DNA of 64,000 bases, taken from BD2-11 clade cluster bacterium bin43 (GTDB lineage Bacteria > Gemmatimonadota > Gemmatimonadetes > Longimicrobiales > Gaopeijiaceae). Below, piece after piece: positions 2,066 through 14,453 of this stretch (within the stretch, counting starts at the first letter, position 1; each line of letters opens with the position of its first letter). The stretch is from NCBI GenBank assembly GCA_002238605.1, contig MPMR01000016.1, positions 1 to 64,000 of the forward strand, read 5' to 3'. The notes under the pieces were generated by a model that saw only the letters and a list, made by a program, of their open reading frames with translations, made no database searches and was not told where the DNA came from. The translations under genes were made by a program, and so were the position numbers.

Positions 2066-2830
2066 ATGATCGCGGTGCTCGCCTCCGCGAATACGTGGGC
2101 GGAGATACAGGCTGTCGCCGGTGACCGCCGGTGTATCCTGGCGCGGGATCAGGACGAGCTCTTGCGGCTAGCCGGTGGCGCCGACGCAGCCGTACTCGAA
2201 GCCGAGGAGCTGTTACCTGTTCTTCGCGTCGTTCGACACATCAATCGAGATCATCCACTCCTGCCCGTCATTCTCATCACCGAGCAGGGCTCAGCTGACC
2301 TTTGGCACCTCGCTTCTGTTTCTGTCGAGGCTGTTCTCTTCGAACACCAGATCATCGCGCGCCTCCCGGTCGCGTTGAAAAGGTCTGTCGGAATGGCCTT
2401 CGAGCTTCGGGCGCTGGCGGAGGACTGCATGAGGAATGAAGTGATCCCGCCGTCAGCCCGCCGTATCTTGACTTCTGCCCTGTCCACCGCCCCACCACCG
2501 CGCACGGTCATGCATCTGGCTCGTCTCGTGAACTCCGACCCATCCACGATCCGTCGGCACTGGCGCCGCGGTGCCAATTCTCACGGGATCCAGCGGCTAA
2601 AGGATCTGTTGGATTGGATCGTTCTGCTACACGCGGTCTCGGCGAAACGCCCAGGTCTTAGCTGGCGGTTCGTCGCCAGGAGCATCGGAACGCATGAGAG
2701 TACCCTGAGACGCCTATCCCACCGTTGCGCGGGCGAAACGCTTGGTTCTCTGAGCTCTGACGGAGCCGAACGACTGATTGAGCGCTTCGCTAAGGCTCTT
2801 GGAGACTCATTCTGCGCGAAATTGCGTTGA
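2066..2830 (+). CDS. HTH (AraC-like) transcriptional regulator with receiver-like N-terminus
   Basis: About 254 residues from ATG 2066. The frame stays open upstream but that part looks non-coding. The N-terminal half alternates short hydrophobic strands (LPVILITEQG) in a way that resembles a response-regulator receiver fold, though I see no clear phosphoacceptor triad. The C-terminal third has two helix-turn-helix-like segments (PSTIRRHWRR and WRFVARSIGTHESTLRRLS), the second with the VA..IG.s.stLrR pattern of AraC-type regulators. It lies 101 bases upstream of Cys-rich peptide 1. Its last seven codons (SFCAKLR) recur at 3931-3951 just before Cys-rich peptide 2, so regulator and peptide probably once formed a duplicated unit. 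A role in controlling the peptide gene is inference. Confidence 0.6.
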   Translation: MIAVLASANTWAEIQAVAGDRRCILARDQDELLRLAGGADAAVLEAEELLPVLRVVRHINRDHPLLPVILITEQGSADLWHLASVSVEAVLFEHQIIARLPVALKRSVGMAFELRALAEDCMRNEVIPPSARRILTSALSTAPPPRTVMHLARLVNSDPSTIRRHWRRGANSHGIQRLKDLLDWIVLLHAVSAKRPGLSWRFVARSIGTHESTLRRLSHRCAGETLGSLSSDGAERLIERFAKALGDSFCAKLR

Positions 2831-2931: not shown

Positions 2932-3120
2932 GTGACAAGCCACAGGAGGAAGGTTCGGAAGGGACGGTTGGTCACGACGGTCAGTGCCCTATTCGTAGCG
3001 GTCCTTGCTCTCGCAAGCGAACCGGGCAAGGCGACTCTCCGGCCTCCGACGGGCTCTTGTCCAACAATCCGCTGTGTCCCGAACTGTGACGAGAGCTGTT
3101 GCAGCGGCTCGAACTGCTAG
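2932..3120 (+). CDS. Cys-rich exported small peptide 1
   Basis: 62 residues from GTG 2932. A basic N-region (HRRKVRKGR) is followed by a hydrophobic stretch (VSALFVAVLALA) and then a short mature part with six Cys, ending CDESCCSGSNC. The layout is that of a secreted or periplasmic disulfide-rich peptide. The start was chosen because the basic N-region then aligns residue for residue with that of peptide 2 (13 codons before VTTVSALF / MTSVGALF); TTG 2968 is an alternative. Bacteroidota NVEALA-type peptides have a comparable architecture and often neighbour propeller and redoxin genes, but I see no NVEALA motif here. Function unknown. Confidence 0.5.
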   Translation: MTSHRRKVRKGRLVTTVSALFVAVLALASEPGKATLRPPTGSCPTIRCVPNCDESCCSGSNC

Positions 3121-3225
3121 GCCGTTTGTCTGAAGGAAGCATGTGCGGATGACCAAGATGCCGTGACTCGATTATAACCGTTTATAGGACCGTACCCTGC
3201 CCAACCCTGCAAGGAGACCCCCCTG

Positions 3226-3534
3226 ATGAGCCTTCCAGCCATCCGCCATGCGATAACGCACAAGCAACCCATTTCCGCGACGTATCGCGGAAAGCACCGG
3301 ATACTGTGCCCTCACGTCGTCGGAAGGAAGAACGGTGTTCTGAACGTCCTCAGCTACCAGTCCGGGGGAGAAAGCGCCAGCGGACTCAGCCCCAATCCAG
3401 CGGACAACTGGAGGTGCATGCGCGTCTCAGAGTTGCGGACCGTGGTCTCGTCGTACACCGAGTGGAAGACTGCACCCAACCACACACGGCCGCAGACATG
3501 CGTCGATGATGTGGATACAGAAGTAGACTACTAG
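3226..3534 (+). CDS. Small WYL-like domain protein
   Basis: 102 residues from an ATG preceded by aaggaga. The core (AITHKQPISATYRGKHR, then CPHVVGRKNG and VLSYQSGG) resembles the beta-strand core of WYL domains, which bind ligands and regulate transcription in many bacteria. No DNA-binding domain is attached, and the C-terminus is an acidic tail (DDVDTEVDY). It sits between Cys-rich peptide 1 and IS fossils, so it may be cargo of the mobile region. The family call is tentative; a ligand-sensing or hypothetical protein is the safest description. Confidence 0.5.
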   Translation: MSLPAIRHAITHKQPISATYRGKHRILCPHVVGRKNGVLNVLSYQSGGESASGLSPNPADNWRCMRVSELRTVVSSYTEWKTAPNHTRPQTCVDDVDTEVDY

Positions 3535-3600
3535 GTCACGGAGTTCCTCCACGCAGCGTACTCGCGGGCTGTTTCTCGGCAATCAGGCCATCTTGGAGTT

Positions 3601-3744
3601 ACCCCGATTTGGTGGACACTTTCAAGCGTTGGTTTTCAACGAGGAGGTGTTACCATGGCAGGAAGTGGAAGGAGGTACGCGCCTGAGTTCAAGGCACGGA
3701 TGGTGGAACTGGTTCAGGTGAGCCGAAGTCTGGACCGCCTGGCG
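3601..3744 (+). mobile_element. IS3-type element fragment (left end plus start of orfA)
   Basis: The left-end-like sequence at 3601-3621 is followed by an ATG at 3655 with a good upstream aggagg. The first 30 codons (GSGRRYAPEFKARMVELV) match the N-terminus of IS3-group OrfA. The similarity ends near 3744 and the frame runs into unrelated sequence, so only a stub remains. The orientation is the same as that of the fragment at the left edge. Confidence 0.6.
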
Positions 3745-3793
3745 CATGTCACCCCTCAAGCTTTGTCCCCTGTCCAGGCGCTATTTCTAATTT

Positions 3794-3880
3794 GTAGAGC
3801 GAGAAGGGATCTCCATTCTTCGAGCCCGTGGTCGTGGCGTGCGCGAGATCGCCCGGCAGCTGGGCCGCGCAAGGATGGAT
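3794..3880 (+). pseudogene. IS30-type transposase N-terminal HTH fragment
   Basis: In this frame the sequence reads EREGISILRARGRGVREIA followed by RQLGRARMDP. The EREEI..LRA.G.GVREIAR.LGR pattern is typical of the N-terminal helix-turn-helix of IS30 transposases. Neither a start nor the catalytic domain is present. It abuts the IS3 fragment, so this spot has been hit by mobile elements more than once. Confidence 0.6.
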
Positions 3881-3927
3881 CCAGATTCCTGATAGTCCTT
3901 TTAGGAGTGGGCCGGGGTTCGCGGCAG

Positions 3928-4002
3928 TCATTCTGCGCGAAACTGCGGTGAAGTGCGCGGTCTTGTTACTTGTCTCCTCCGCCCGACTCAGGTACGTCTG
4001 AC
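3928..4002 (+). repeat. Copy B of the duplicated segment (regulator tail to peptide leader)
   Basis: It contains a second copy of the HTH gene's last codons (SFCAKLR then stop, 3931-3954) and the leader that follows, matching 2807-2880. Upstream of 3928 the similarity ends at the IS30 fragment, so the second regulator gene was apparently lost to mobile elements. Confidence 0.6.
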
Positions 4003-4017
4003 TCAGGTAGATCTATC

Positions 4018-4275
4018 TTGATTAACGATTGGCAGATCCGCTTGGAGAAGCGTTTGATGACGTCAGTGGGCGCCCTCTTTGTCGCGCTCATTGCTCTCGC
4101 AGGTGCGCCGGCTGAGCCTGTGGTTCCATCCTCTGGGAGTTCTTGTAGGAACGCAGGCGGCTGCTCCACCACTTGTGGGGGCGACGAGTGCGAGGAAGTT
4201 GGCGAGTGCAGCACCTCTTGTACAGCAATCTGTAGTGGTGGGCTGTATTGGGTCGGATGCGAGCCTGACGATTAG
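4018..4275 (+). CDS. Cys-rich exported small peptide 2
   Basis: About 85 residues from TTG 4018 (aggtag lies 8 bases upstream). ATG 4056 is an alternative but would remove the basic residues RLEKR before the hydrophobic core (VGALFVALIALAGAPA). The mature region holds eight Cys, most separated by two to five residues (GGCSTTCGGDECEEVGEC). It is a paralogue of peptide 1 by leader and signal-region similarity. The next gene on the same strand is a beta-propeller protein starting about 140 bases later, so the two may be co-transcribed. The function is not known; a disulfide-stabilised secreted peptide is inferred. Confidence 0.5.
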   Translation: MINDWQIRLEKRLMTSVGALFVALIALAGAPAEPVVPSSGSSCRNAGGCSTTCGGDECEEVGECSTSCTAICSGGLYWVGCEPDD

Positions 4276-4417
4276 TCTTGGCAATACCGCAGGTGGCGAC
4301 GCAGTGAAACCCGGTGGCATGATGGCGGGAAGAAGGTTGCGAATGTTATCTAGACGCCCCCAGTTCTCTGTCCGGTTTTGGGACGCTGAATTCGAGAAGG
4401 AGCGATCGAAGGCGGGC

Positions 4418-5668
4418 GTGCGTCTATTGACCTTGCTCTTTGTCTTGCTCCTTTGCGCCCCGCCGCCGATACATTCACAGGACGCATGCCCGACGCCATG
4501 GCGGCTAGATGAGGTCCTGCGGATCGGCTCCGTGGAAAGCACGGACCTCGTTGCCAGCGTCCTGGATCTTGCGCTCGGGCCCGACAGCGTGCTCTATGTC
4601 GCTCAGGCAATGGTGCCTGCGGTTACGGTTTTCTCTCTTGATGGTCAGGTGCTTCGTCGGATCGGTCGTGCGGGCAACGGGCCGGGTGATATCCAGCTTT
4701 CGGTGACAGGCGTAGGCTGGATCGGAGACACACTCTGGGTAGCCGACCTCAATCGGATCCAGTTGTTTCGCACTAACGAGCGAGTGCCGGAGCAAGTCAT
4801 CCAGTTCTCCAGGGGCGTGCCCGAGGAAGGGTCGCGCCTAGCCCCAGGCCGCATGCTCGCGGACGGTACTCTCGTTGGTAGGCGTCGCATCACCGACGGA
4901 CGGGTCTTCTCATCGCGAGGCGCCAACCCCGGGCTTGCGCTGCGGCGCCTCTCGCGATCCGGCGAAGTCCTGGACACGATCGCCATGATGGGTTGGTCGG
5001 GCAACGCCGTAGAGAATGAGAGAGACCCTCGGCTGTTTCCTGGCCGACACCCGCTCCGGGACCTGCCCGTTATCGGATTTAGGGGACCCCTGACGGCGCT
5101 CAAGCCGGACGGCTCCGCAGTCGTACAAATCGGGAAAGTGCATGAAGACGCAACTCCACCGACCTTCGACCTTCTGGCGATTTCGATCCATGGGGACACG
5201 CTCCTGAATCGGTCCGTAGAGTACGAACCGCGCGAAGTCACCTCCGCGATGGAACGCCGCTTGGCGGACGAGTATGCAGGGTGGCGAGCCGGAGACTACG
5301 CATCCTCGACCCGAAGCCCTCAGCTAACGGAGTCAACACTTGAGCGTAGGCGCCGCGCGGCTCGCAGAGTTTTCTGGGTTCCGGAATACCATCCCCCGGT
5401 CAGGCAGGTAGTGGCAGGAACGGACGGGACGATCTGGTTGCTTCGAGAGATGCGTGAAGACCGCGTTGACCTGTGGGAGATCTACGACTCGGATGGAACG
5501 CGAGAGGGTACAATAGAGGTTGGGCACGGTCGGAGTTCCCTGAGACCTTGGCATCCTCGTCTCGCTGTTGCCCTCGTGAGCCGCAACGAAGTCTGGGGAA
5601 CCACGTTCGACGAATACGAAGTCCCATACATTCACCGGTACTTGGTTGATCGGACATGCACACCCTAG
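4418..5668 (+). CDS. Exported 6-bladed beta-propeller protein
   Basis: 416 residues from GTG 4418, chosen because it gives a clean signal peptide (RLLTLLFVLLLCAPPPIHS then Q-D-A-C). ATG 4319 is in frame upstream but would put a long charged stretch before it. Repeats such as DSVLYVAQ, GQVLRRIGRAGNGPGDIQ and DTLWVADLNRIQLF are typical of the NHL-like 6-bladed propellers common in Bacteroidota and Gemmatimonadota. These are cell-envelope proteins of mostly unknown ligand. It follows Cys-rich peptide 2 and faces the minus-strand barrel gene end to end (22-base gap). A functional link to the peptide is inference. Confidence 0.7.
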   Translation: MRLLTLLFVLLLCAPPPIHSQDACPTPWRLDEVLRIGSVESTDLVASVLDLALGPDSVLYVAQAMVPAVTVFSLDGQVLRRIGRAGNGPGDIQLSVTGVGWIGDTLWVADLNRIQLFRTNERVPEQVIQFSRGVPEEGSRLAPGRMLADGTLVGRRRITDGRVFSSRGANPGLALRRLSRSGEVLDTIAMMGWSGNAVENERDPRLFPGRHPLRDLPVIGFRGPLTALKPDGSAVVQIGKVHEDATPPTFDLLAISIHGDTLLNRSVEYEPREVTSAMERRLADEYAGWRAGDYASSTRSPQLTESTLERRRRAARRVFWVPEYHPPVRQVVAGTDGTIWLLREMREDRVDLWEIYDSDGTREGTIEVGHGRSSLRPWHPRLAVALVSRNEVWGTTFDEYEVPYIHRYLVDRTCTP

Positions 5669-5690
5669 GAAACTGTCGAGATCCCGTGGT

Positions 5691-7454
5691 TCATTTGGGA
5701 GAAAGCGATGTTGCACCGCTGACAGGCCCGGGCTTGGAGCGGGGATGGCGGGGGGGGGCGCCCCCCGCCCCCCCCCGCCCCCCCCCCCCCCAGCCCACGC
5801 CCGCCGATATGCTCCAGAGCGACCGCTCCGCGCCCACGCCCGGAATTGAGTCCACCGGCCCCGAGCGGTCAAACCTGCCGCGCACCACGAGCGTCGCGTC
5901 CCGCCCCAGGTGTGCGAGCACCGTCGCGGATGCCGCATATGCGCGGGCCGCCGTGGCGTGGAGGGCCAACTCCGGGGCCACGAGCTCCGGCTGGATCCGA
6001 CCGAAAACCCCGGAGTCCGGAATCGTGCCCGACGGGTCGTAACGCGAGAAGCTGCCTCCCACCGAGAGGGCCACGCGCTCCGACAGCCACCGGGCAGCCT
6101 CCAGGCTCACGCCGGGGCTCGCGTCGGCGATGTCCTCCGTGACCTGCACGAGGAAATCCCGGCGCAGGCGCGTCTTTCGGCCGATCGAGACCCGGAGTCC
6201 CGCGATCCAGACGGAGTCGGCGGCGGCCGCCCGCAGATCCACGGATCCAGTGAACGTTCGCTGCCGCGCCCGGAATATCGCGCCCTGACCCTCCAGGTCC
6301 CGGCGGAACGCGTCGCCGTCCAGCGCGGCATAGCGGGCCGACACCACCGCCCTGAGGGGTCCCGCGCGGCCGAGGGCATCGAGTCCTACTCTCCAACCCT
6401 TCGCCTCCCATCGGTTCGGCACCTCGTCGGTCAGGCGTGAGCCTACATGGACGTTGTCGAGGTGCTCCCGCTCGCCGTGCATCACCCAGTGCCACTGGCC
6501 CAGGCGCCCCGCGAGCCCCCCGCCCACGGCATAGTTGTTTCGCCCGACATTGCGCGCGACGATGCTGGGGCCGGCCGCGCGGCGCGGCTCCGGATCCCCG
6601 AGGCCATCGAGCTCCACGACCTCCGTTACGATCCCGCCCGGCAAGGCGATTCGGCTGTTTTCGTTCGCTTCGGACCAGCGCCCGAAGGCCGAGACCGAGA
6701 GGCCCGCGTCGGACAGGACGCGCAGCAAACCGAAGTTCAGCGCCGGTGCCGATGCCCGTCCCAGCCGTGCCGCGCGAGCCTTGCGCGTGCGGTCGTCGCT
6801 CATCTCGAGGCCGAGCCCGGCTCCGATCGCCCAGGGCCCCGCGCGCCATCCATAGGCGCTCTCCAGTCGTACCCGCACGTGCCGCATCGGCGGGGTTGTG
6901 GTGTCGGTGAACACGAAGGGATCGGGCGAGTGGCGCACCAGGTAGGTGGCGAGCGAGCCCACGTCCGAAATCGTTTCGTCGGCGACGACTCGTCCCGCGA
7001 CCCCCGAACGCTCACCCAGCGGTTGCCAGCGGAGCGCCGACAACTGGACGGCACGATGGTCGCGCGCGTCGAGGGGTCTACGGTACTCTCCCACGTCGCC
7101 GCCGCCCCGGAACCGGATCTCGCCCCAGGCGTCCTCCGCCTCACGAGCCAGCGCCGCGGGCGTCCCCGTGCTGCAAAGCTGCCCGACGCGCGGAGCGGGG
7201 GCGTCGAGCAGCCGGAGCGACGGGGGCGCGGACGGTACTTCGCGCTCCCATGTGCCCAATCGCGCAAGCGGGCTCCACGCCGTCATCCAGGCGGGAGTCT
7301 CCGGCGACCGGACGGGCGTGAGCGGGTCGGCCGACTGCGCGGCGGCAGGCTGCGGCGCGGCGAGAACCATCACGACCACGGCGGTTGCGAAGCGACCTCC
7401 GTCGACCCGCCAGCAATTCGGTCTCGATGAGCGCACCCTGCACTTCGAGGTCAC
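5691..7454 (-). CDS. Outer-membrane beta-barrel protein (DUF6850-like)
   Basis: 587 residues from GTG 7454, whose GTGA overlaps the stop of the TonB receptor gene, so the two are translationally coupled. An N-terminal export signal is visible (FATAVVVMVLAAPQPAAAQ). The rest alternates short amphipathic strands ending in aromatic residues, as in outer-membrane barrels. The segment with HSPDPFVFTDT and the following strands resembles DUF6850 proteins, which accompany TonB receptors in Bacteroidota. The C-terminus is unusual: after AGVGW, where a barrel would normally end, the frame runs through the G-rich tract and adds about 30 low-complexity residues. A frameshift or length variation in the tract is likely. 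Confidence 0.65.
   Translation of the reverse strand: MTSKCRVRSSRPNCWRVDGGRFATAVVVMVLAAPQPAAAQSADPLTPVRSPETPAWMTAWSPLARLGTWEREVPSAPPSLRLLDAPAPRVGQLCSTGTPAALAREAEDAWGEIRFRGGGDVGEYRRPLDARDHRAVQLSALRWQPLGERSGVAGRVVADETISDVGSLATYLVRHSPDPFVFTDTTTPPMRHVRVRLESAYGWRAGPWAIGAGLGLEMSDDRTRKARAARLGRASAPALNFGLLRVLSDAGLSVSAFGRWSEANENSRIALPGGIVTEVVELDGLGDPEPRRAAGPSIVARNVGRNNYAVGGGLAGRLGQWHWVMHGEREHLDNVHVGSRLTDEVPNRWEAKGWRVGLDALGRAGPLRAVVSARYAALDGDAFRRDLEGQGAIFRARQRTFTGSVDLRAAAADSVWIAGLRVSIGRKTRLRRDFLVQVTEDIADASPGVSLEAARWLSERVALSVGGSFSRYDPSGTIPDSGVFGRIQPELVAPELALHATAARAYAASATVLAHLGRDATLVVRGRFDRSGPVDSIPGVGAERSLWSISAGVGWGGGGRGGAGGAPPRHPRSKPGPVSGATSLSPK
5747..5791. repeat. G/C homopolymer tract with a 14-C run
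   Basis: Nine G (5750-5758), then runs of 6, 9 and 14 C (the last 5778-5791), interrupted by single G. The G-run can pair with the first C-run to form a stem (5747-5755 with 5761-5769). It lies inside the last codons of the minus-strand barrel gene as called, so a change in tract length would shift the C-terminus. It could be slippage-prone in vivo or a sequencing/assembly error. Confidence 0.7.
7411..7449 (-). repeat. 39-base repeat, copy at the barrel gene start
   Basis: It matches 8021-8059 at 36 of 39 positions. Read in the frame that encodes LEVQGALIETELL in the TonB receptor, all three differences are at third codon positions. In the barrel gene this copy is read in another frame (TSKCRVRSSRPNC), so that gene's first codons appear to be built on a captured piece of receptor coding sequence. 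Confidence 0.75.
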
Positions 7455-10321
7455 GGGTTCGCCCCGCCGCCGGCAGGATCCCGCGCTGGTCCCAGGAGCC
7501 AGCCCAGCCTGAACGCGCCCTCCAGGCCGAAGCGAAGTCCCCTGTTGAAGCGTGGGCTCTGGTCTTCGTTCCCGCGCGTCCCCGGCCGGTCCAGGGCGTT
7601 GAAGGCCCAGAGCGATAGCCGGCCATCGAAGGGGAGATCCAGGGTGACCTGGAGGTTCAGGAACCAGTCCGGTGCGATCTCGTCGGGACGCGTGAAGACG
7701 TTGGTGCGCGGCTCGCGGAGGTCCGCGAACCCGGGTCGGCCCCGGTCTGCCGCCGGCACCCGGACCATGTCGCCGCCGCGGGTGATGTATCCCACCCACG
7801 CCAGCGTGTCCGTCTGAGCGACATTCTCGACCTTCTCGTACACGAAGTGCTGCACGGTCCCCGTAATCACGAGCCCGAGATCCGGCTGGTGGTGCACGAG
7901 CCGGTAGGTCAGCAGCGCGCGCACGCCGGTCTGTTTCACGCTCTCCCAGAACGGCGCCCGTCCGACGCGCTCGTCCATCTGGAACGAACCGAAGCGCGTG
8001 CCGAAGTCGAGGCCGTCCTTCAGCAACTCGGTCTCGATGAGCGCGCCCTGTACTTCGAGAGCCGTGCGCAGGGGACGCAGCTGTGGGAGCCGCGCCGTCA
8101 GCTCGAGGCCCCTCGCCGCCAGCGTGAGGTTGTTGTCCGGGATATCCAGTATGACCGGAGTGGAGTCGCTCGCCATCGGGGGGTCGCGAATCTCCGGACG
8201 AGCGCCGGTGCCGATCGTCGAATCCGACAACTCGTACCGGTCCCGATAGATGACGGCCGGAGTGGACCGGATCCCCACCCCGCCCTCGGTCCGGTCCCGA
8301 AACGCGGTCACGCTCACGGACAGATCGGGCGCGGGAGCCACCTCGATCCCGGCTTCCGCCTTCGTCGTGCGGGAGAATCCCAGGGCCGGGTTGTCCGGGT
8401 TCTGAATGAAGGTGGTCAGGACGGCCAGCCGCTCCGCGGGATCGGGCGCGAACCAGTTCACGTTCACAACGTCGTAGAACTGCCGCGCGGGGCTGAGTTG
8501 TCCGAGAGACGGCTGCTTGGCGGTCCGGCCGACTCCGGCCCGCAGGCGCAGCCACGGCCGCGGGGAGAGCTGCGCGTTCAGCCGCGGCTGGAGCACGCCG
8601 TCCCGCACGCCGGAGGCCCAGTGCCCCGCGTCGTGCAGCAGGTCCAGCCGGAGGCCCGCCTGCACGTCGTAGCTCCACCGTCCACCGAGCGCGTCCACGA
8701 CACGATCGTCCAGGTAGACGGCGCTTGCCGCTGCCGCGCCGAGGTCGTCGAAGCGCCGGGGTCGGTCGAAGCCCTGGACGCCGTTGAAGCTCATCTGCGG
8801 GGGAAACTCGATGTCGAACTGGTAGCCGGGCCCGGCGTTCCACTCGCGCCGCAGGACGGTCCCGGCGCGGACACGGTGATCGAGACCGAGCCAGCTCGTC
8901 CGGCGGTCGGCTTCGAGGCGCGTGAAGACCTGGCGGACATCGCCGTCGATGGCCACGCGGCTCTGGTAGGTTCCGCCGATGAACCGTCCGATGGAGCGGC
9001 CCGCGGTCACCCGGTCGGTAAAGGGCATCGCGCCGCGCGCGCGAGGAGCCTCCACGAACGAACGCTGCCGCGTGAGATCCAGCGCGCCCGTGAACTCGAG
9101 CAGGAACCCGGGTGAGAGGCTGAGTCTGGCGCGTTCGGAGATGCGCAGGCCCCGGTCGCGGCTCCAGGACGAAGCCCCCGGCGACACCACGGAGTCCTCC
9201 GGGTTGTCGTGGACGACCTGAAAGAGGTCCAGGCGCGTGTCGAGGCGAAGCCTGGGGATGGGCTCGCTCCCCGCGCCCGTAGCGAACGCCTCGCCCACGT
9301 CCGCCCTGTGAGAGAACTGGCTCGAGAACCGCACCGACTCGTTGTCGTTGAAGCCGGGGCTCGGGCGCGTACCGGTGACGTCCAGCGTGCCCGACATCGC
9401 GCCGTCGGCCGCGAGGCTCCACCCGCCGACGAAGCTCCCGCCAGCGGTGAAGGGGTCGAAGATGCTCTCCAGACGTGGCTCGAAGGCTCCCGCGCGCGTG
9501 TCCACTACGATGACGCCGTGGCTCAGGTCGCCGAAGCGCACCGACGGCACGCCGCGGATCACCTCGACCCGCTCGAGCGTCGTCGCGGGGATGCGCCTCA
9601 GGTCGATCCCTCCCCCCGCGCTCGTGGGGATGCGCAGCTCTCCGCGAGGGCCCAGGCTCTGCAGGTTCGCATTGTTCGAGATGGGAACGCCGTCCATCAC
9701 GATGAGCGTGCCGAACGACGCGAGCTCGGCGGGCGACGGGCCGCTTCCCACGAGGCTCAGCACGGAGCTGGTCGGTACGGTGCGGAGCGAGATCTGTTCG
9801 ACATTGTCCAGCCCCGGCGGCCTCAATACGGCCCCGGGTACCAGCTCCAGGAGCCCGGACAGCGAGGTGGCGGTTTGAACGTCGATGGCGTTCTGTCCGA
9901 TCACGCTCGCGGTGCCCAGCTCACCGCGGGCCCTGGACACGGGATCGGCCGTGACCGTGACACCCTCGAGCCGAAGCGGAGACGTGGCGAGCGCCACATC
10001 GAGCTCCATGACCCCGGCCGTGGGCATGGCGAGCCGGACGCGGGCCGCGGCGTATCCGATCATCTCGACGGAGAGGACCTGGGGACCCGGCGGGACGTCC
10101 CGCAGCCGATAGCGCCCGGCCGAGTCCGTGACCACGCCCAGGTTGAGCCCCTCGATCGACACCACCGCGCCCGCGATCGCCCGGTTGGTGCCCTGGTCGG
10201 TCACGACGCCTTCCAGGCCGGTTTCCGTCTGTGCCGGGACCGGAGCGGGCGGGAGACCTCCGCCGAGTAGCAGGAGGAGGCCGAGGCGGAGGGAGCGCGG
10301 CCGCAAGGACCGGTAGCTCAT
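7451..10321 (-). CDS. TonB-dependent outer-membrane receptor
   Basis: 956 residues. A signal peptide (LGLLLLLGGGLPPAPVPAQ) is followed by a carboxypeptidase-regulatory-like domain (GVVTDQGTNRAIAGAVVSIE, to about residue 115). Next come a plug domain (VTVTADP to about 290, with IVMDGVPISNN and RVEVIRGVPSVRFGDLSHGV) and a C-terminal barrel. The family moves large substrates across the outer membrane using TonB energy. Its ATG overlaps the anti-sigma stop (10318-10321), and the downstream barrel gene overlaps its own stop, giving a tight sigma/anti-sigma/receptor/barrel operon. The receptor may therefore be expressed through an ECF cascade. The ligand is unknown. Confidence 0.85.
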   Translation of the reverse strand: MSYRSLRPRSLRLGLLLLLGGGLPPAPVPAQTETGLEGVVTDQGTNRAIAGAVVSIEGLNLGVVTDSAGRYRLRDVPPGPQVLSVEMIGYAAARVRLAMPTAGVMELDVALATSPLRLEGVTVTADPVSRARGELGTASVIGQNAIDVQTATSLSGLLELVPGAVLRPPGLDNVEQISLRTVPTSSVLSLVGSGPSPAELASFGTLIVMDGVPISNNANLQSLGPRGELRIPTSAGGGIDLRRIPATTLERVEVIRGVPSVRFGDLSHGVIVVDTRAGAFEPRLESIFDPFTAGGSFVGGWSLAADGAMSGTLDVTGTRPSPGFNDNESVRFSSQFSHRADVGEAFATGAGSEPIPRLRLDTRLDLFQVVHDNPEDSVVSPGASSWSRDRGLRISERARLSLSPGFLLEFTGALDLTRQRSFVEAPRARGAMPFTDRVTAGRSIGRFIGGTYQSRVAIDGDVRQVFTRLEADRRTSWLGLDHRVRAGTVLRREWNAGPGYQFDIEFPPQMSFNGVQGFDRPRRFDDLGAAAASAVYLDDRVVDALGGRWSYDVQAGLRLDLLHDAGHWASGVRDGVLQPRLNAQLSPRPWLRLRAGVGRTAKQPSLGQLSPARQFYDVVNVNWFAPDPAERLAVLTTFIQNPDNPALGFSRTTKAEAGIEVAPAPDLSVSVTAFRDRTEGGVGIRSTPAVIYRDRYELSDSTIGTGARPEIRDPPMASDSTPVILDIPDNNLTLAARGLELTARLPQLRPLRTALEVQGALIETELLKDGLDFGTRFGSFQMDERVGRAPFWESVKQTGVRALLTYRLVHHQPDLGLVITGTVQHFVYEKVENVAQTDTLAWVGYITRGGDMVRVPAADRGRPGFADLREPRTNVFTRPDEIAPDWFLNLQVTLDLPFDGRLSLWAFNALDRPGTRGNEDQSPRFNRGLRFGLEGAFRLGWLLGPARDPAGGGANP
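8021..8059 (-). repeat. 39-base repeat, copy inside the TonB receptor gene
   Basis: This is the partner of 7411-7449. Here the sequence lies in the receptor's own frame and encodes LEVQGALIETELL within a barrel strand, so it is probably the ancestral context. Confidence 0.75.
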
Positions 10322-11136
10322 CCGCCCGGAACCAGGAAACGAATCTCCTCGGGGCTGCGGCTGGTGACGGGGCCGCGCACGTCGAGCGACGCTCCGTCCT
10401 TGACCAAGAGAGCCTCCTCCCCCACGAGCAGCGCCACTCGCTCCGCTCTCTTGGGGATTTCCACCCGGATGCTGGCCCCCAGAACCGTAACGTCCAGCCG
10501 GCCGGGCTCACTCCGGAACCGCGAGGCAGCGGAGCCGAAGACACCCGCGTCGGTCCCGTCAACGAACACCACGCGGATCTCGGTCCCGGGGAGCACTTCG
10601 TGGAGCGCGATCCGGACCGGCTCGCGCGTAGCTTCCAGGAAGATTCCGGCTTCGGCCGGAGGGGTCGGAAGGGCGGCGGTCGACTCGTCGGGCTCTGCGC
10701 GGGAGGGTGCCACAGCCTCGCTCTCCATGCCCGGCATGACCTCAACGGGCGCATCGCCCGGCTCGTCGGCGAGAAGCGCCACGATCCGTTCCCACGCGCG
10801 TCCGGCCCAGCCGTACAATGGAGATGCGGGGGCGAAGGCGGAAACACCCGCGAGGACTGCAACGAGCAGACACGCCGCCAGGCCGCGTAGGCGCCCGGTG
10901 CGTCGCCGCCTCGTCCGCACACGCCGCACCACCTCCCCCCAGGCCGCCTCGACATCCGGAGCGGGATGCAACTCGCCGATGGCTCCCCGAGCCAGATGGC
11001 GAAGTGTCGCGAGCTCCTCGTGCACCGCCGAACAGGCGGGACACCCCTCCAGATGGCGCTCCACCTCACACCGATCCTCGGGAGAGAGCCAGGCCTCGAC
11101 GTAGGCCTGGAGCCGGCCTTCAGGAATATGATTCAT
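10318..11136 (-). CDS. Membrane anti-sigma factor with zinc-binding domain
   Basis: 272 residues from ATG 11136, 17 bases inside the end of the sigma-factor gene. The N-terminal HxxxCxxC motif (H28, C32, C35 in RHLEGCPAC) marks a zinc anti-sigma domain that binds and holds an ECF sigma factor. One transmembrane helix follows (GLAACLLVAVLAGVSAF). The extracytoplasmic part of about 170 residues has a strand-rich stretch that may sense a signal or contact the TonB receptor, as FecR proteins do. The FecR comparison rests on context, not on clear sequence similarity. An ATG further upstream (11166) is possible but less likely. Confidence 0.8.
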   Translation of the reverse strand: MNHIPEGRLQAYVEAWLSPEDRCEVERHLEGCPACSAVHEELATLRHLARGAIGELHPAPDVEAAWGEVVRRVRTRRRRTGRLRGLAACLLVAVLAGVSAFAPASPLYGWAGRAWERIVALLADEPGDAPVEVMPGMESEAVAPSRAEPDESTAALPTPPAEAGIFLEATREPVRIALHEVLPGTEIRVVFVDGTDAGVFGSAASRFRSEPGRLDVTVLGASIRVEIPKRAERVALLVGEEALLVKDGASLDVRGPVTSRSPEEIRFLVPGG

Positions 11137-11662
11137 GACAGTACCCCTGTTCCCGCAGTTTGGCACTCAGGCTTCGTCTGGCGCGGGCCAGCAGAGTCGA
11201 CACCGAAGTCGTCGAGACTCGCAGATGCTGAGCGATCTCGCGTTGGGAAAACCCCGCTACGCTCATCTCAAGCAGCTTCCGCGCCCGGTCGTCCAGTGTA
11301 TCCAGCGCCGTCCGCACGGCGCGAATGCGCTCGCCCCGTTCCACCTCCTCGTCGGGCAGCGGAGTTGGCTTGACCCACTCCAGTCGCCAAAGCCGGAGAC
11401 GTCGTCGCGTTCCTTCTCGCCGCAAACTGTCGCGAAGCGCGTTTCCCGCCGTCCGGAAAAGCCAGCGCCTGAGTTCCTCGCGAGATCCCCGGACGTTCTT
11501 CACAACCATACGCGCGAACGCTTCCTGGGCCGCGTCCGCAGCGAGGTCCGGATCGCTCGTCATGGCGCGGCAACGCCCCAGAAGCGCGGGATAGACCTCT
11601 TCGAAAAGTTCTCTAGGGTCCACCCGCTCGCTCCGGGACGGTGGGCGAGGGTCCGAGGTCAC
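11120..11662 (-). CDS. ECF-family RNA polymerase sigma factor
   Basis: 180 residues. Region 2 is seen at about 15-85 (DPRELFEEVYPALLGRCRAM, then DAAQEAFARM). Region 4 is at about 115-170 with a helix-turn-helix (GFSQREIAQHLRVSTTSVST). The length and the absence of region 3 fit the ECF group. It heads the four-gene minus-strand operon and is paired with the overlapping anti-sigma gene. It probably directs transcription of its own operon, and perhaps of the divergent thioredoxin/peptide genes. The operator has not been identified. Confidence 0.9.
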   Translation of the reverse strand: MTSDPRPPSRSERVDPRELFEEVYPALLGRCRAMTSDPDLAADAAQEAFARMVVKNVRGSREELRRWLFRTAGNALRDSLRREGTRRRLRLWRLEWVKPTPLPDEEVERGERIRAVRTALDTLDDRARKLLEMSVAGFSQREIAQHLRVSTTSVSTLLARARRSLSAKLREQGYCHESYS

Positions 11663-11982
11663 AGCCTCGGATCCAGACGCGTCCCTCCCTAGAGAAGGAA
11701 CGTTTCAGGAGGGCGTTTCGTGACAAGCGGGCGGGTCGGAGAAGGCAATGAGCGCGACGAGGGTCGGGCTTGCTGTGCGCAAGCGTTCGCTTGGAAACCT
11801 TGATTCGCGGATCTCGGAGCGGACGACCGAGAACCCAAGCGACGGAAGGTGCAAAAGTATGCGCACCGCCCGGAGCGTCGGCAAGGGACCAGGAAGGATC
11901 TCGGAGACGATGAACCACAGGGAAGCTGGTGATTGTGCCAGGCCGGTTACGACATGGGCAGGCCAACAGGGCACCGCTCGCG

Positions 11983-12012
11983 CTGTCGTATTTCGTGGTA
12001 CTCAAACGTTGT
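11983..12012 (+). promoter_or_regulatory. Second copy of the shared 30-base element
   Basis: It matches 1872-1901 at 25 of 30 positions, including an identical ctcaaacgttgt core, and lies 53 bases before the thioredoxin-like gene. The 11663-12064 gap separates the divergent sigma operon from this gene and should hold both promoters. No other gene is convincing in it. Confidence 0.45.
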
Positions 12013-12064
12013 CTTGCGTGGTGATCATGTGCATCGAGGCGTTGGGCGACATGGAGGTGGGCGC

Positions 12065-12706
12065 GTGACTGGAATCAGCCGGAGGGGTCGAGGCAAGGTC
12101 GAGCCTGCGTCGCAGGGCGGACTTGCGATCGGTCGTTGGCGCACATTGACGGTATTGACCGTGGTTCTTGCTGGTCTGTCGGCTCTGCTTGCGACTCAGA
12201 AGCGGCAGCTCCGTGCGGAGGCGGAGGCGCTGCGGGAGACGGTCCGGCGGCAGGTAGATTTTCCGCACACGGGCATGGTGGTCCCCGCATTCGACGGTGT
12301 AACGCTGGAGGGTGACGAGGTGAGGATCGGTGTGGCGGCGCCGGGAACCCGACAGATCCTCTTCATGCTGGACACCCGGTGCGGGAACTGCCTCGTCACG
12401 CTCCCGGCATGGAACCGGATGGCGGAGGCAGTCGCGCACGACGATGCATCCGTCGAGGTGTACGGGCTGTCCCTGGATCCGGCACCGGAAACCCGGGCCT
12501 ACGTGGAGGAGCACGGACTCGGCTTCTCGGTGGTTCTCTTCGACGACGAGCGCTACCGCGAGTTGTACCGGGTGCGGGGCATTCCAATCACGCTGGTGGT
12601 CAATGAGATCGGGGCAGTCGAGTACGTGAGGCTCGGCTCGATCTTCGGTGAGTGGGCCGATCCCGTCGTGGACTCGGTCGTGACTGCGGCGGTGGCGGGA
12701 CGATGA
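12065..12706 (+). CDS. Membrane-anchored thioredoxin-like protein (TlpA/ResA type)
   Basis: 213 residues from GTG 12065, preceded by ggaggtggg. An N-terminal membrane helix (TLTVLTVVLAGLSALLA) and a linker helix precede a thioredoxin fold with the active-site motif CGNC (in DTRCGNCLVTLP) and a cis-Pro region (VRGIPITLVV). It should act outside the cytoplasmic membrane as a disulfide reductase or oxidase. The next gene is a Cys-rich exported peptide, so that peptide is a plausible substrate; this is inference from context. A terminator-like hairpin separates the two. Confidence 0.8.
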   Translation: MTGISRRGRGKVEPASQGGLAIGRWRTLTVLTVVLAGLSALLATQKRQLRAEAEALRETVRRQVDFPHTGMVVPAFDGVTLEGDEVRIGVAAPGTRQILFMLDTRCGNCLVTLPAWNRMAEAVAHDDASVEVYGLSLDPAPETRAYVEEHGLGFSVVLFDDERYRELYRVRGIPITLVVNEIGAVEYVRLGSIFGEWADPVVDSVVTAAVAGR

Positions 12707-12752
12707 TCCCTTGAGCGCCGACGTGGCGGAAGCTTGGCGGTTGGAGGTCGCG

Positions 12753-12778
12753 CCGGAGCACGAGGCTCCGGTTTTTTT
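12753..12778 (+). terminator. Intrinsic terminator or attenuator before Cys-rich peptide 3
   Basis: A perfect 7-bp stem ccggagc/gctccgg with a 5-base loop is followed by seven T (12772-12778). It lies 47 bases after the thioredoxin-like gene and only 21 bases before the peptide's ATG. There is too little room for a promoter between, so it may act as a regulated attenuator for the peptide. Confidence 0.8.
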
Positions 12779-12799
12779 CACCTTTGGTTGGAGGTACTC

Positions 12800-13012
12800 A
12801 TGAAGAAGAGGGTTGCGGTGGTTCGCCAAGTGCTGTTGGGGCTATTGGTTGCCTCGGTCATCACGTTCGGGAGCGTCGAGGTGGCGCGCGGACTTGGAGG
12901 GACGGCCCGAGCTGAGTGCACCGGCTGCCCTGACGACGATTGGTGCACCCAATGCTGCAAGGGTGAGCCTAGCCTCTGTCTGGAACCGGACCGGCAATGC
13001 ATGTGTGGGTGA
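12800..13012 (+). CDS. Cys-rich exported small peptide 3
   Basis: 70 residues from ATG 12800 with a strong ggaggt seven bases upstream. The N-terminus is a signal-like sequence (MKKRVAVVRQVLLGLLVASV), and the C-terminal 32 residues carry eight Cys (ECTGCPDDDWCTQCCKG, then CLEPDRQCMCG). The overall design is like peptides 1 and 2 and like NVEALA-type peptides of Bacteroidota, though sequence similarity outside the design is low. It lies between a thioredoxin-like gene and a DUF4876-type lipoprotein gene. A role as a secreted, disulfide-folded peptide is inferred; no function is known. Confidence 0.7.
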   Translation: MKKRVAVVRQVLLGLLVASVITFGSVEVARGLGGTARAECTGCPDDDWCTQCCKGEPSLCLEPDRQCMCG

Positions 13013-13030: not shown

Positions 13031-13060
13031 TCTCTGGGGCGGCGATCGCCGCCCCAGAGA
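13031..13060. repeat. 30-base perfect palindrome after Cys-rich peptide 3
   Basis: tctctggggcggcga is followed directly by its exact reverse complement. It lies 18 bases after the peptide stop and 70 before the next gene. It could be an mRNA 3' hairpin that protects or ends the peptide transcript, or a dimeric protein-binding site. No T-run follows. Confidence 0.8.
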
Positions 13061-13130: not shown

Positions 13131-14453
13131 ATGGCACGCCGGCAGACCGGTCTCTTCCCGATCTTCGCTCTCGGCTGCTTCCTTGCGAGTTGTTCGCCTG
13201 GCGACGATCCCGTCGAACTTCGGCCTCCGCCTCCGGACACTACCTCTCGCAGCGTCGGAGACACGGTCCAGCGAGGGAGCCTGACCGTCACGGTTACGGC
13301 GGCTGGCGAAGCGAGTCGGGCTCTCGAGGCTCTCGGGCGTCCAGCCGACCGCGTGCCGGAGGCGCACGTCAGAATCCGCCGCGTCGGCGAGTCGCCGGTC
13401 GAGGTGGGCACTACGGACTCCCTCGGGGAAGTTACCTTCGCGGGGCTTCTGCCCGGGCGATATGACATCACCTCCCTTCGCCTCCTGAATGCAGACGAGA
13501 CGGCCCGGATCAACGAGGCGGACTCGGCCCTGAGCGGCGTCAACGCTTTCGGGGGCGGCAACCGCGTCCAGGTCCAGCCGCCGTCCAGCACCGCGGACGT
13601 CGAAGCGGTGGCCGGTCGCCGAGGCTCCCTCGTAATCAGCGAGGTCCATGACTGGTCGCCGCGCGAGATCGGTGGACCCACTGTCCAGTATTCGCTGGCC
13701 AAGTATGTCGAGGTCTACAACAACGCGGACACGACCGTGTACCTGGATGGCAAGATCATCGCCCAGGCGTTCGATTTCGTGTGGGAAAGCGACGCTTCGC
13801 CAGACCGCTGCGTCGACTATGAACGCTGGCGGCTCGATTCCGAAGGCATCTGGGCGCAGCGCGTACTCCGATTCCCCGGCTCGGGACGGGAATACCCTGT
13901 CCTGCCGGGTCAGGCCCGCGTAGTGGCGCAACAGGCGATCAATCATGAGGAACTCTATCCCGGATCCGGACTCCCGGACCTCTCGCGGGCCGATTTCGAG
14001 GTGTTCGGCATGGGTCAGGACATCGACAATCCGGCCGTGCCCAACATGGAGCACGTCGGGTTCAGGCCTTCCGTCGACCCACTGGGAAGGGGGTTGCTGC
14101 TGAGTTCCATCCCCATCCTCGTGGTGGTTGACAACGTCGACCTTGAGTCTTTGCCCACAGACAAGCTGCCCCTGCAATATCCGGACTACCACCGGTTCCC
14201 CGGTGAGGCGATCCTGGATCTGGTCACGACCCAGCCGGTTCCTCGAGCCCACCTGACCTGGCGCTTTTGCGAGCGCCTGGTTAGCGGAGTGTTCGATCGT
14301 CAGGTAGCCATCATCAAGGATGAGTTCGCCGGCAACTCGATGCATCGGCGCGTGCTCGGCACGACCCGCACCGGATACCCCATCCTGCAACGCACGAAGA
14401 CGAGCGCCGTGGACCTCGTGCGGGGTGCAAGAAGCCCGGGGCGGGTGCCTTAA
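13131..14453 (+). CDS. DUF4876-like surface lipoprotein
   Basis: 440 residues from ATG 13131, preceded by aggaagg. A lipoprotein signal ends in LASC (Cys 21). Next comes a carboxypeptidase-regulatory-like module at about 40-125 (VTVTAAGEA, EVTFAGLLPGRYDI). A domain starting SLVISEVHDWSP, with EVYNNADTTVYLDGKII, resembles the lamin-tail-like DUF4876 of Bacteroidota. Such lipoproteins occur next to TonB receptors and DUF6850-type barrels, and both of those are encoded divergently here, so the genes probably work as one outer-membrane system. The substrate is unknown. Confidence 0.7.
   Translation: MARRQTGLFPIFALGCFLASCSPGDDPVELRPPPPDTTSRSVGDTVQRGSLTVTVTAAGEASRALEALGRPADRVPEAHVRIRRVGESPVEVGTTDSLGEVTFAGLLPGRYDITSLRLLNADETARINEADSALSGVNAFGGGNRVQVQPPSSTADVEAVAGRRGSLVISEVHDWSPREIGGPTVQYSLAKYVEVYNNADTTVYLDGKIIAQAFDFVWESDASPDRCVDYERWRLDSEGIWAQRVLRFPGSGREYPVLPGQARVVAQQAINHEELYPGSGLPDLSRADFEVFGMGQDIDNPAVPNMEHVGFRPSVDPLGRGLLLSSIPILVVVDNVDLESLPTDKLPLQYPDYHRFPGEAILDLVTTQPVPRAHLTWRFCERLVSGVFDRQVAIIKDEFAGNSMHRRVLGTTRTGYPILQRTKTSAVDLVRGARSPGRVP

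Follow-up and report, generated by a model that had tools for sequence, protein, structure and literature searches.

Two separate cassettes for exported peptides are, in our reading, encoded in the first 64,000 nucleotides of contig MPMR01000016.1 (positions 1 to 64,000, forward strand; hereafter the window) of the BD2-11 clade cluster bacterium bin43, a member of the Gemmatimonadota. The window contains three small genes for Cys-rich peptides, here called P1, P2 and P3. Comparison of sequences and structure prediction give good support for two features of P3: a fold of the cysteine-stabilised alpha-beta (CS-alpha-beta) type, and a recurrent linkage of its gene with genes for a TlpA-like thioredoxin, a DUF4876 protein and a TonB-dependent receptor. 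To the further proposal that P3 works in a TlpA/DUF4876/TonB uptake module, and P2 in a cassette with a DsbA-like oxidoreductase and a propeller-like protein, we give roughly even chances. An initial annotation, made from the sequence alone, had described P1, P2 and P3 as one family of disulfide-rich exported peptides in the company of redox and propeller genes; it missed the CS-alpha-beta framework of P3 and the TonB receptor, DUF6850 and DUF4876 genes around it, and its interpretation was in this respect incomplete.

Coding evidence for the three peptides

The three open reading frames (ORFs) were found where they had been described, with 6, 8 and 8 Cys in P1, P2 and P3, respectively, each behind an N-terminal hydrophobic stretch. 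Homologues with conserved Cys spacing are present in related genomes: P2 has orthologues in G123, G010 and G083 (E from 2e-30 to 7e-22) and a weaker one in G421, and P3 has an orthologue with 58% identity at the same locus in G385. Substitutions at codon positions 1, 2 and 3 number 16, 19 and 35 between the P3 genes of the window and G385, and 23, 12 and 34 between the P2 genes of the window and G123. The excess at third positions, the orthologues and the conserved neighbourhoods allowed us to conclude that P2 and P3 are real coding sequences. Thus, the idea that all three are chance ORFs of GC-rich DNA, which their short lengths and the non-ATG starts of P1 and P2 might suggest, is already refuted for P2 and P3, and we give it practically no credence.

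CS-alpha-beta framework and predicted fold of P3

A profile made from P3 and two relatives brought up dozens of copies from a sister family (labelled f3). Among the 71 peptides collected, 54 meet the strict CS-alpha-beta pattern, and in the alignment of the mature parts of 55 sequences, P3 included, six Cys are invariant (C1...C2-x3-C3...C4...C5-x-C6). The search of the PDB with this 55-sequence profile gave 139 matches, the best 60 of which were CS-alpha-beta peptides (insect defensin, E = 1.6e-6, sapecin, plectasin and alpha-KTx). When the non-Cys residues were shuffled as a control, the same class of match was kept, with a best E of 0.006 and 42 matches, and the best match scored 20.0 bits versus 31.3 bits with the real alignment, a difference of about 11 bits due to the non-Cys residues. 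Since the shuffled control weakens the match but keeps its class, most of the PDB signal comes from the Cys framework, to which the other residues add. Moreover, a profile built from the 17 window-type peptides, that is, those of the branch of P3, which shares P3 alone with the 55-sequence alignment, matched CS-alpha-beta chains in 46 of 47 cases, including the bacterial peptide xanthusin-1 (7unx).

AlphaFold2 predicted a beta-alpha-beta-beta arrangement for P3, with a predicted local distance difference test score (pLDDT) of 75.7, and reached 90.4 for one member of the sister family; 8 of the 9 Foldseek matches were CS-alpha-beta structures. Individual family members match the Pfam families Defensin_2, Gamma-thionin and those of scorpion toxins weakly, and P3 alone has no Pfam match. 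P3 carries an extra Cys pair, common to G385 and G361. As judged by eye, the N-terminus is hydrophobic in all family peptides and an AxA-like site is present in most of them, less clearly in P3; the FG and A-x-A region of the leader is unusually conserved. The mature window-type peptides are net negative in 16 of 17 cases, and those of the sister family have charges mostly from -3 to +1.

The sister family reaches 26 copies in G104, 21 in G113 and 14 in G108, some of them in tandem arrays; in f3 genomes, diverse CS-alpha-beta-like peptides stand in such arrays on L101, L107 and L108. Inspection of the array loci for a common neighbour revealed none that is widely shared. No relative of P3 was confirmed in the viral contigs searched, and a scan of genome contigs with the sister-family alignment confirmed nothing.

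Genes linked to P3-type peptides

In the window, genes of the P3 module and its regulators are followed on the opposite strand by the TlpA-like gene, P3 and the DUF4876 gene, in this order:

5691..7445, minus strand: outer-membrane DUF6850 protein, part of the P3 module (PF21012, 32.2 bits against a gathering cut-off of 27)
7451..10321, minus strand: TonB-dependent receptor of the P3 module, with carboxypeptidase-regulatory-like and plug domains
10318..11166, minus strand: anti-sigma factor with a zf-HC2 domain; a relative is found in L163
11120..11662, minus strand: extracytoplasmic function (ECF) sigma factor
12065..12706, plus strand: TlpA/ResA-like membrane-anchored thioredoxin, active site CGNC (PF00578; StoA/ResA-type NCBIfam matches under cut-off)
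12752..12772, plus strand: terminator-like hairpin and T-run that separate P3 from the TlpA-like gene
12800..13012, plus strand: P3, acidic peptide, probably exported; 8 Cys and the CS-alpha-beta framework
13131..14453, plus strand: DUF4876 protein with a LASC lipobox-like N-terminus, 3' of P3 (PF16215, 51.2 bits against a gathering cut-off of 27.9)

Just 3' of P3, a 28-base perfect palindrome (CTCTGGGGCGGCGATCGCCGCCCCAGAG) occupies positions 13032-13059 and has no T-run.

To describe the neighbourhood of P3-type peptides, 20 window-type loci were examined in 16 genomes of seven families (f1, f2, f3, f4, f6, f7 and f10): the window, G385, G361 (two), G103 (three), G366, G143, G336, G188, G172, G407, G014, G273, G231, G250 (two), G102 and G100. 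The TlpA-like gene is present in 16 of these loci, as is the DUF4876 gene; both occur in 12 and at least one of them in all 20. Absences are to be read softly, because some contigs stop inside the locus. A TonB receptor is found in 13 of the 20, those outside the window being 42-93% identical to its own, and relatives of the DUF6850 protein (PF21012) adjoin P3-type peptides in other loci. Most loci were inspected after the peptide profile had located them; for G231, G250 and G273 the starting point was PF16215, which matches in only 10 of 249 genomes, so that the linkage between peptide and DUF4876 is visible from both sides. In G036, G066 and G254, a more Bacteroidetes-like DUF4876 gene stands with a receptor, without such a peptide.

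In three TlpA-like copies adjoining peptides (L165:6523-7020, L166:3808-4212 and L166:10157-10624) the CxxC is partly or wholly lost, and the L165 copy has an in-frame TAG. The GenBank titles of several contigs, L187 (JAPPJO010000122.1), L175-L179 and L190, name Gammaproteobacteria or Bryobacterales, labels that look wrong.

The P1/P2 family and its cassette

The second cassette lies 5' of the P3 module:

2066..2830, plus strand: helix-turn-helix (HTH)-like protein, 5' of P1 (Pfam HTH matches weak and under cut-off)
2932..3120, plus strand: P1, exported Cys-rich peptide with 6 Cys; probably a tandem copy of P2 cut short by a stop
4018..4275, plus strand: P2, exported Cys-rich peptide with 8 Cys and a net charge of about -8
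4418..5668, plus strand: propeller-like exported protein, 3' of P2 (Pfam DUF5128 six-bladed match under cut-off)

P1 is a homologue of P2 (46% over 53 residues, E = 3e-4), and this part of the single family first described stands; P3 is unrelated to them. A common family for the three was rejected, as the P2 profile has no CS-alpha-beta match and the alignment of the P2 and P3 profiles covers mainly the leader. The DNA 5' of P1 and of P2 is duplicated as well (80% identity over 75 base pairs, E = 2e-13), and the duplication takes in the HTH-like gene's 3' end. Since the P2-family profile continues past the TAG stop of P1, this peptide is probably a truncated tandem copy of P2 and may be non-functional on its own. 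The real start of P2 may lie further in, at TTG 4042 or ATG 4057. Between P1 and P2, a short ORF (3655-3951) finishes with the duplicate of the HTH-like gene's 3' end, and its start may resemble that of a transposase OrfA; an insertion may have separated the two peptide genes. The HTH-like gene has relatives with 68% identity in L050 and 64% in L164, and is kept 5' of the P2-type peptide in G083 and also at the P2-like locus of G385.

Seven P2-type loci were compared (the window, G010, G083, G123, G421, JAJEHF010000092 (L190) and G385). A DsbA-like gene is present in six, the window being the exception, and a propeller-like gene in six, the exception being G385; the order is peptide-propeller-DsbA or peptide-DsbA-propeller. 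The DsbA-like gene of G010 matches both PF13462 and PF01323 over cut-off. In the distant DsbA-propeller pairs of G014 (L214) and JACDBX010000119 (L194), Cys-rich exported peptides adjoin the pair or lie between its genes. A search of the window genome for the DsbA partner of P2 gave 31% identity at best and no obvious orthologue.

The company of genes first reported, a propeller gene 3' of P2 and a thioredoxin-like gene 5' of P3, was thus found. The propeller label is provisional, because the PF17170 (DUF5128) match scores 16.4 bits, under the gathering cut-off of 22.9. The propeller was rejected as an obligate partner of P2-type peptides, since for many of its close paralogues no such peptide lies within a distance of about 1.6 kb. 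Tandem pairs of propeller-like genes without a Cys-rich peptide were observed in L227, L228 and L230 of related genomes. The association of exported Cys-rich peptides with redox genes holds, but for two families with two partners, DsbA-like for P2 and TlpA-like for P3.

Discussion

The arrangement that we propose for P3 starts from an acidic miniprotein exported through Sec, with probably four disulfides holding its CS-alpha-beta fold; these would be formed or isomerised in the periplasm by the adjoining membrane-anchored TlpA-like thioredoxin. Mature P3 would then act extracellularly or at the outer membrane together with the DUF4876 lipoprotein, as the part that captures or presents a ligand for the uptake module of TonB-dependent receptor and DUF6850 protein, the whole being controlled by the ECF sigma and anti-sigma factors. 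The ligand would most likely be iron or another scarce metal complex. Iron is suggested because DUF4876/TonB-receptor loci are strongly induced by iron depletion in Porphyromonas gingivalis (PG1019-22, 21-215-fold) and in Bacteroides thetaiotaomicron (BT3625-33, 37-128-fold) (PMC10434189). P2, with the truncated P1, would be a separate exported Cys-rich peptide, which its relatives pair with a DsbA-like oxidoreductase and usually with a propeller-like exported protein; the window would have lost, or lack, the DsbA gene of this cassette.

Several observations weigh against this explanation. The TlpA-like copies of G361 and G103 have no full CxxC, so that a redox role is not universal, and a terminator-like hairpin, with a similar counterpart and T-run in G385, stands between the TlpA-like gene and P3. 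As for the fold, the Foldseek E-values are weak (best 0.44), as a chain of 35 residues leads one to expect, and P3 does not have the glycine of the GxC (gamma-core) motif, showing PSLC instead; GxC precedes C4 in 51 of the 54 sister-family members and also occurs in G361 (GGDC). P3 is thus better described as a CS-alpha-beta-type peptide than as a canonical cis-defensin. The P2 profile found no match in the PDB, and P2 could be given no fold. Moreover, many sister-family copies have no TlpA, DUF4876 or receptor gene nearby, and the P3 family as a whole is therefore not tied to uptake. Finally, the link to iron is drawn by analogy with Bacteroidetes only.

On the other hand, P3-type peptides could be defensin-like bacteriocins or antagonistic effectors directed against neighbouring microbes, the TonB module being incidental or serving self-uptake or immunity. 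This is suggested by the fold itself, by the antimicrobial activity reported for the bacterial cis-defensin actifensin (PMC6989792, PMC12284004), and by the sister family, which has tandem arrays and as many as 26 diverse copies in one genome, and whose arrays a diversified secreted arsenal explains equally well. We nevertheless consider it rather unlikely. The charges reported above differ from those of cationic antimicrobial defensins, and the acidity of P3-type peptides disfavours a classical membrane-active defensin; furthermore, the linkage with DUF4876, receptor and DUF6850 genes recurs in several families, and no antimicrobial activity was seen for the cis-defensin xanthusin-1 (PMC11561630).

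Two other explanations concern the state of the Cys. The peptides might have no stable disulfide fold and act instead as reduced thiols, metallothionein-like metal binders or redox sensors that TlpA or DsbA would cycle; their many Cys, their acidic charge and the thioredoxin-fold neighbour in both cassettes would suit this role. We judge it improbable, since the Cys spacing is precisely that of CS-alpha-beta peptides, the best PDB match also draws on the non-Cys residues, the G conserved ahead of C4 fits a structural role and CxxC is absent from some TlpA copies. Precursors of ribosomally synthesised and post-translationally modified peptides, in which a modifying enzyme recognises the leader and the Cys are modified instead of disulfide-bonded, would account for the conserved leader region, and P2 has a weak match to the radical-SAM-target family TIGR04117 (E = 0.014, 15.4 bits against a cut-off of 50). 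However, no recurrent neighbour is widely shared among the sister-family loci, and the oxidoreductase neighbours together with the CS-alpha-beta framework account better for the Cys, making such precursors very improbable.

Our preferred explanation, two exported-peptide cassettes with P3 in an uptake module, can be compared with known systems. The bacterial cis-defensins (classes I-V) resemble the P3 family in signal peptide, which is putative here, in six-Cys CS-alpha-beta framework and, in most members here, GxC; P3 differs from them in having no GxC, in its extra Cys pair, its acidic charge and its TlpA/DUF4876/TonB-receptor module, and the sister family in its copy number. With insect and plant defensins, plectasin and alpha-KTx toxins P3 shares the Cys framework and the predicted fold, but it is bacterial, acidic and placed in another gene setting. 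In the iron-responsive Bacteroidetes loci DUF4876 (PF16215) adjoins a TonB-dependent receptor, as here, whereas the module described in this work adds a TlpA-like gene and a CS-alpha-beta peptide, with DUF6850 as a further partner. The comparison with the NVEALA peptides of Bacteroidota made in the initial annotation was not borne out: these are small and exported like P1-P3, but PF14055 matched none of the three peptides and none of the 59 genomes of the lineage, while the control search gave a match in Bacteroides ihuae, and membership was rejected.

A survey of 2024 listed 74 bacterial cis-defensins in three phyla, namely Proteobacteria and, with a single peptide each, Acidobacteria and Actinobacteria; Gemmatimonadota are not mentioned in it (PMC11561630). 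Searching titles and abstracts of the open-licence literature, we found nothing on bacterial defensins in Gemmatimonadota or on defensin-like peptides in Longimicrobium, and we came across no description of a peptide family with a predicted defensin fold encoded next to a redox protein and a receptor for nutrient uptake. A broader proposal, which we put forward tentatively and regard as possible though on the doubtful side, is that TonB uptake makes use of a miniprotein with the defensin fold, either as a carrier that is secreted or as a cofactor at the surface (a peptide metallophore or receptor ligand with its own TlpA-like maturation enzyme), that the fold radiated in the sister family and gave rise there to numerous secreted peptides that stand alone, and that Gemmatimonadota hold a large share of the CS-alpha-beta peptides of bacteria, as a major reservoir that is relevant to the question of a bacterial origin of defensins.

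The conserved redox and TonB-uptake neighbourhood of the window-type branch offers a concrete and testable non-antimicrobial role for the CS-alpha-beta fold. The up to 26 candidates per genome, set beside the cis-defensins scattered over three phyla in the survey, are new material on whether defensins have a bacterial origin. Moreover, the pairing of two exported Cys-rich peptides, unrelated to each other, with different oxidoreductases makes a useful system to study dedicated disulfide maturation.

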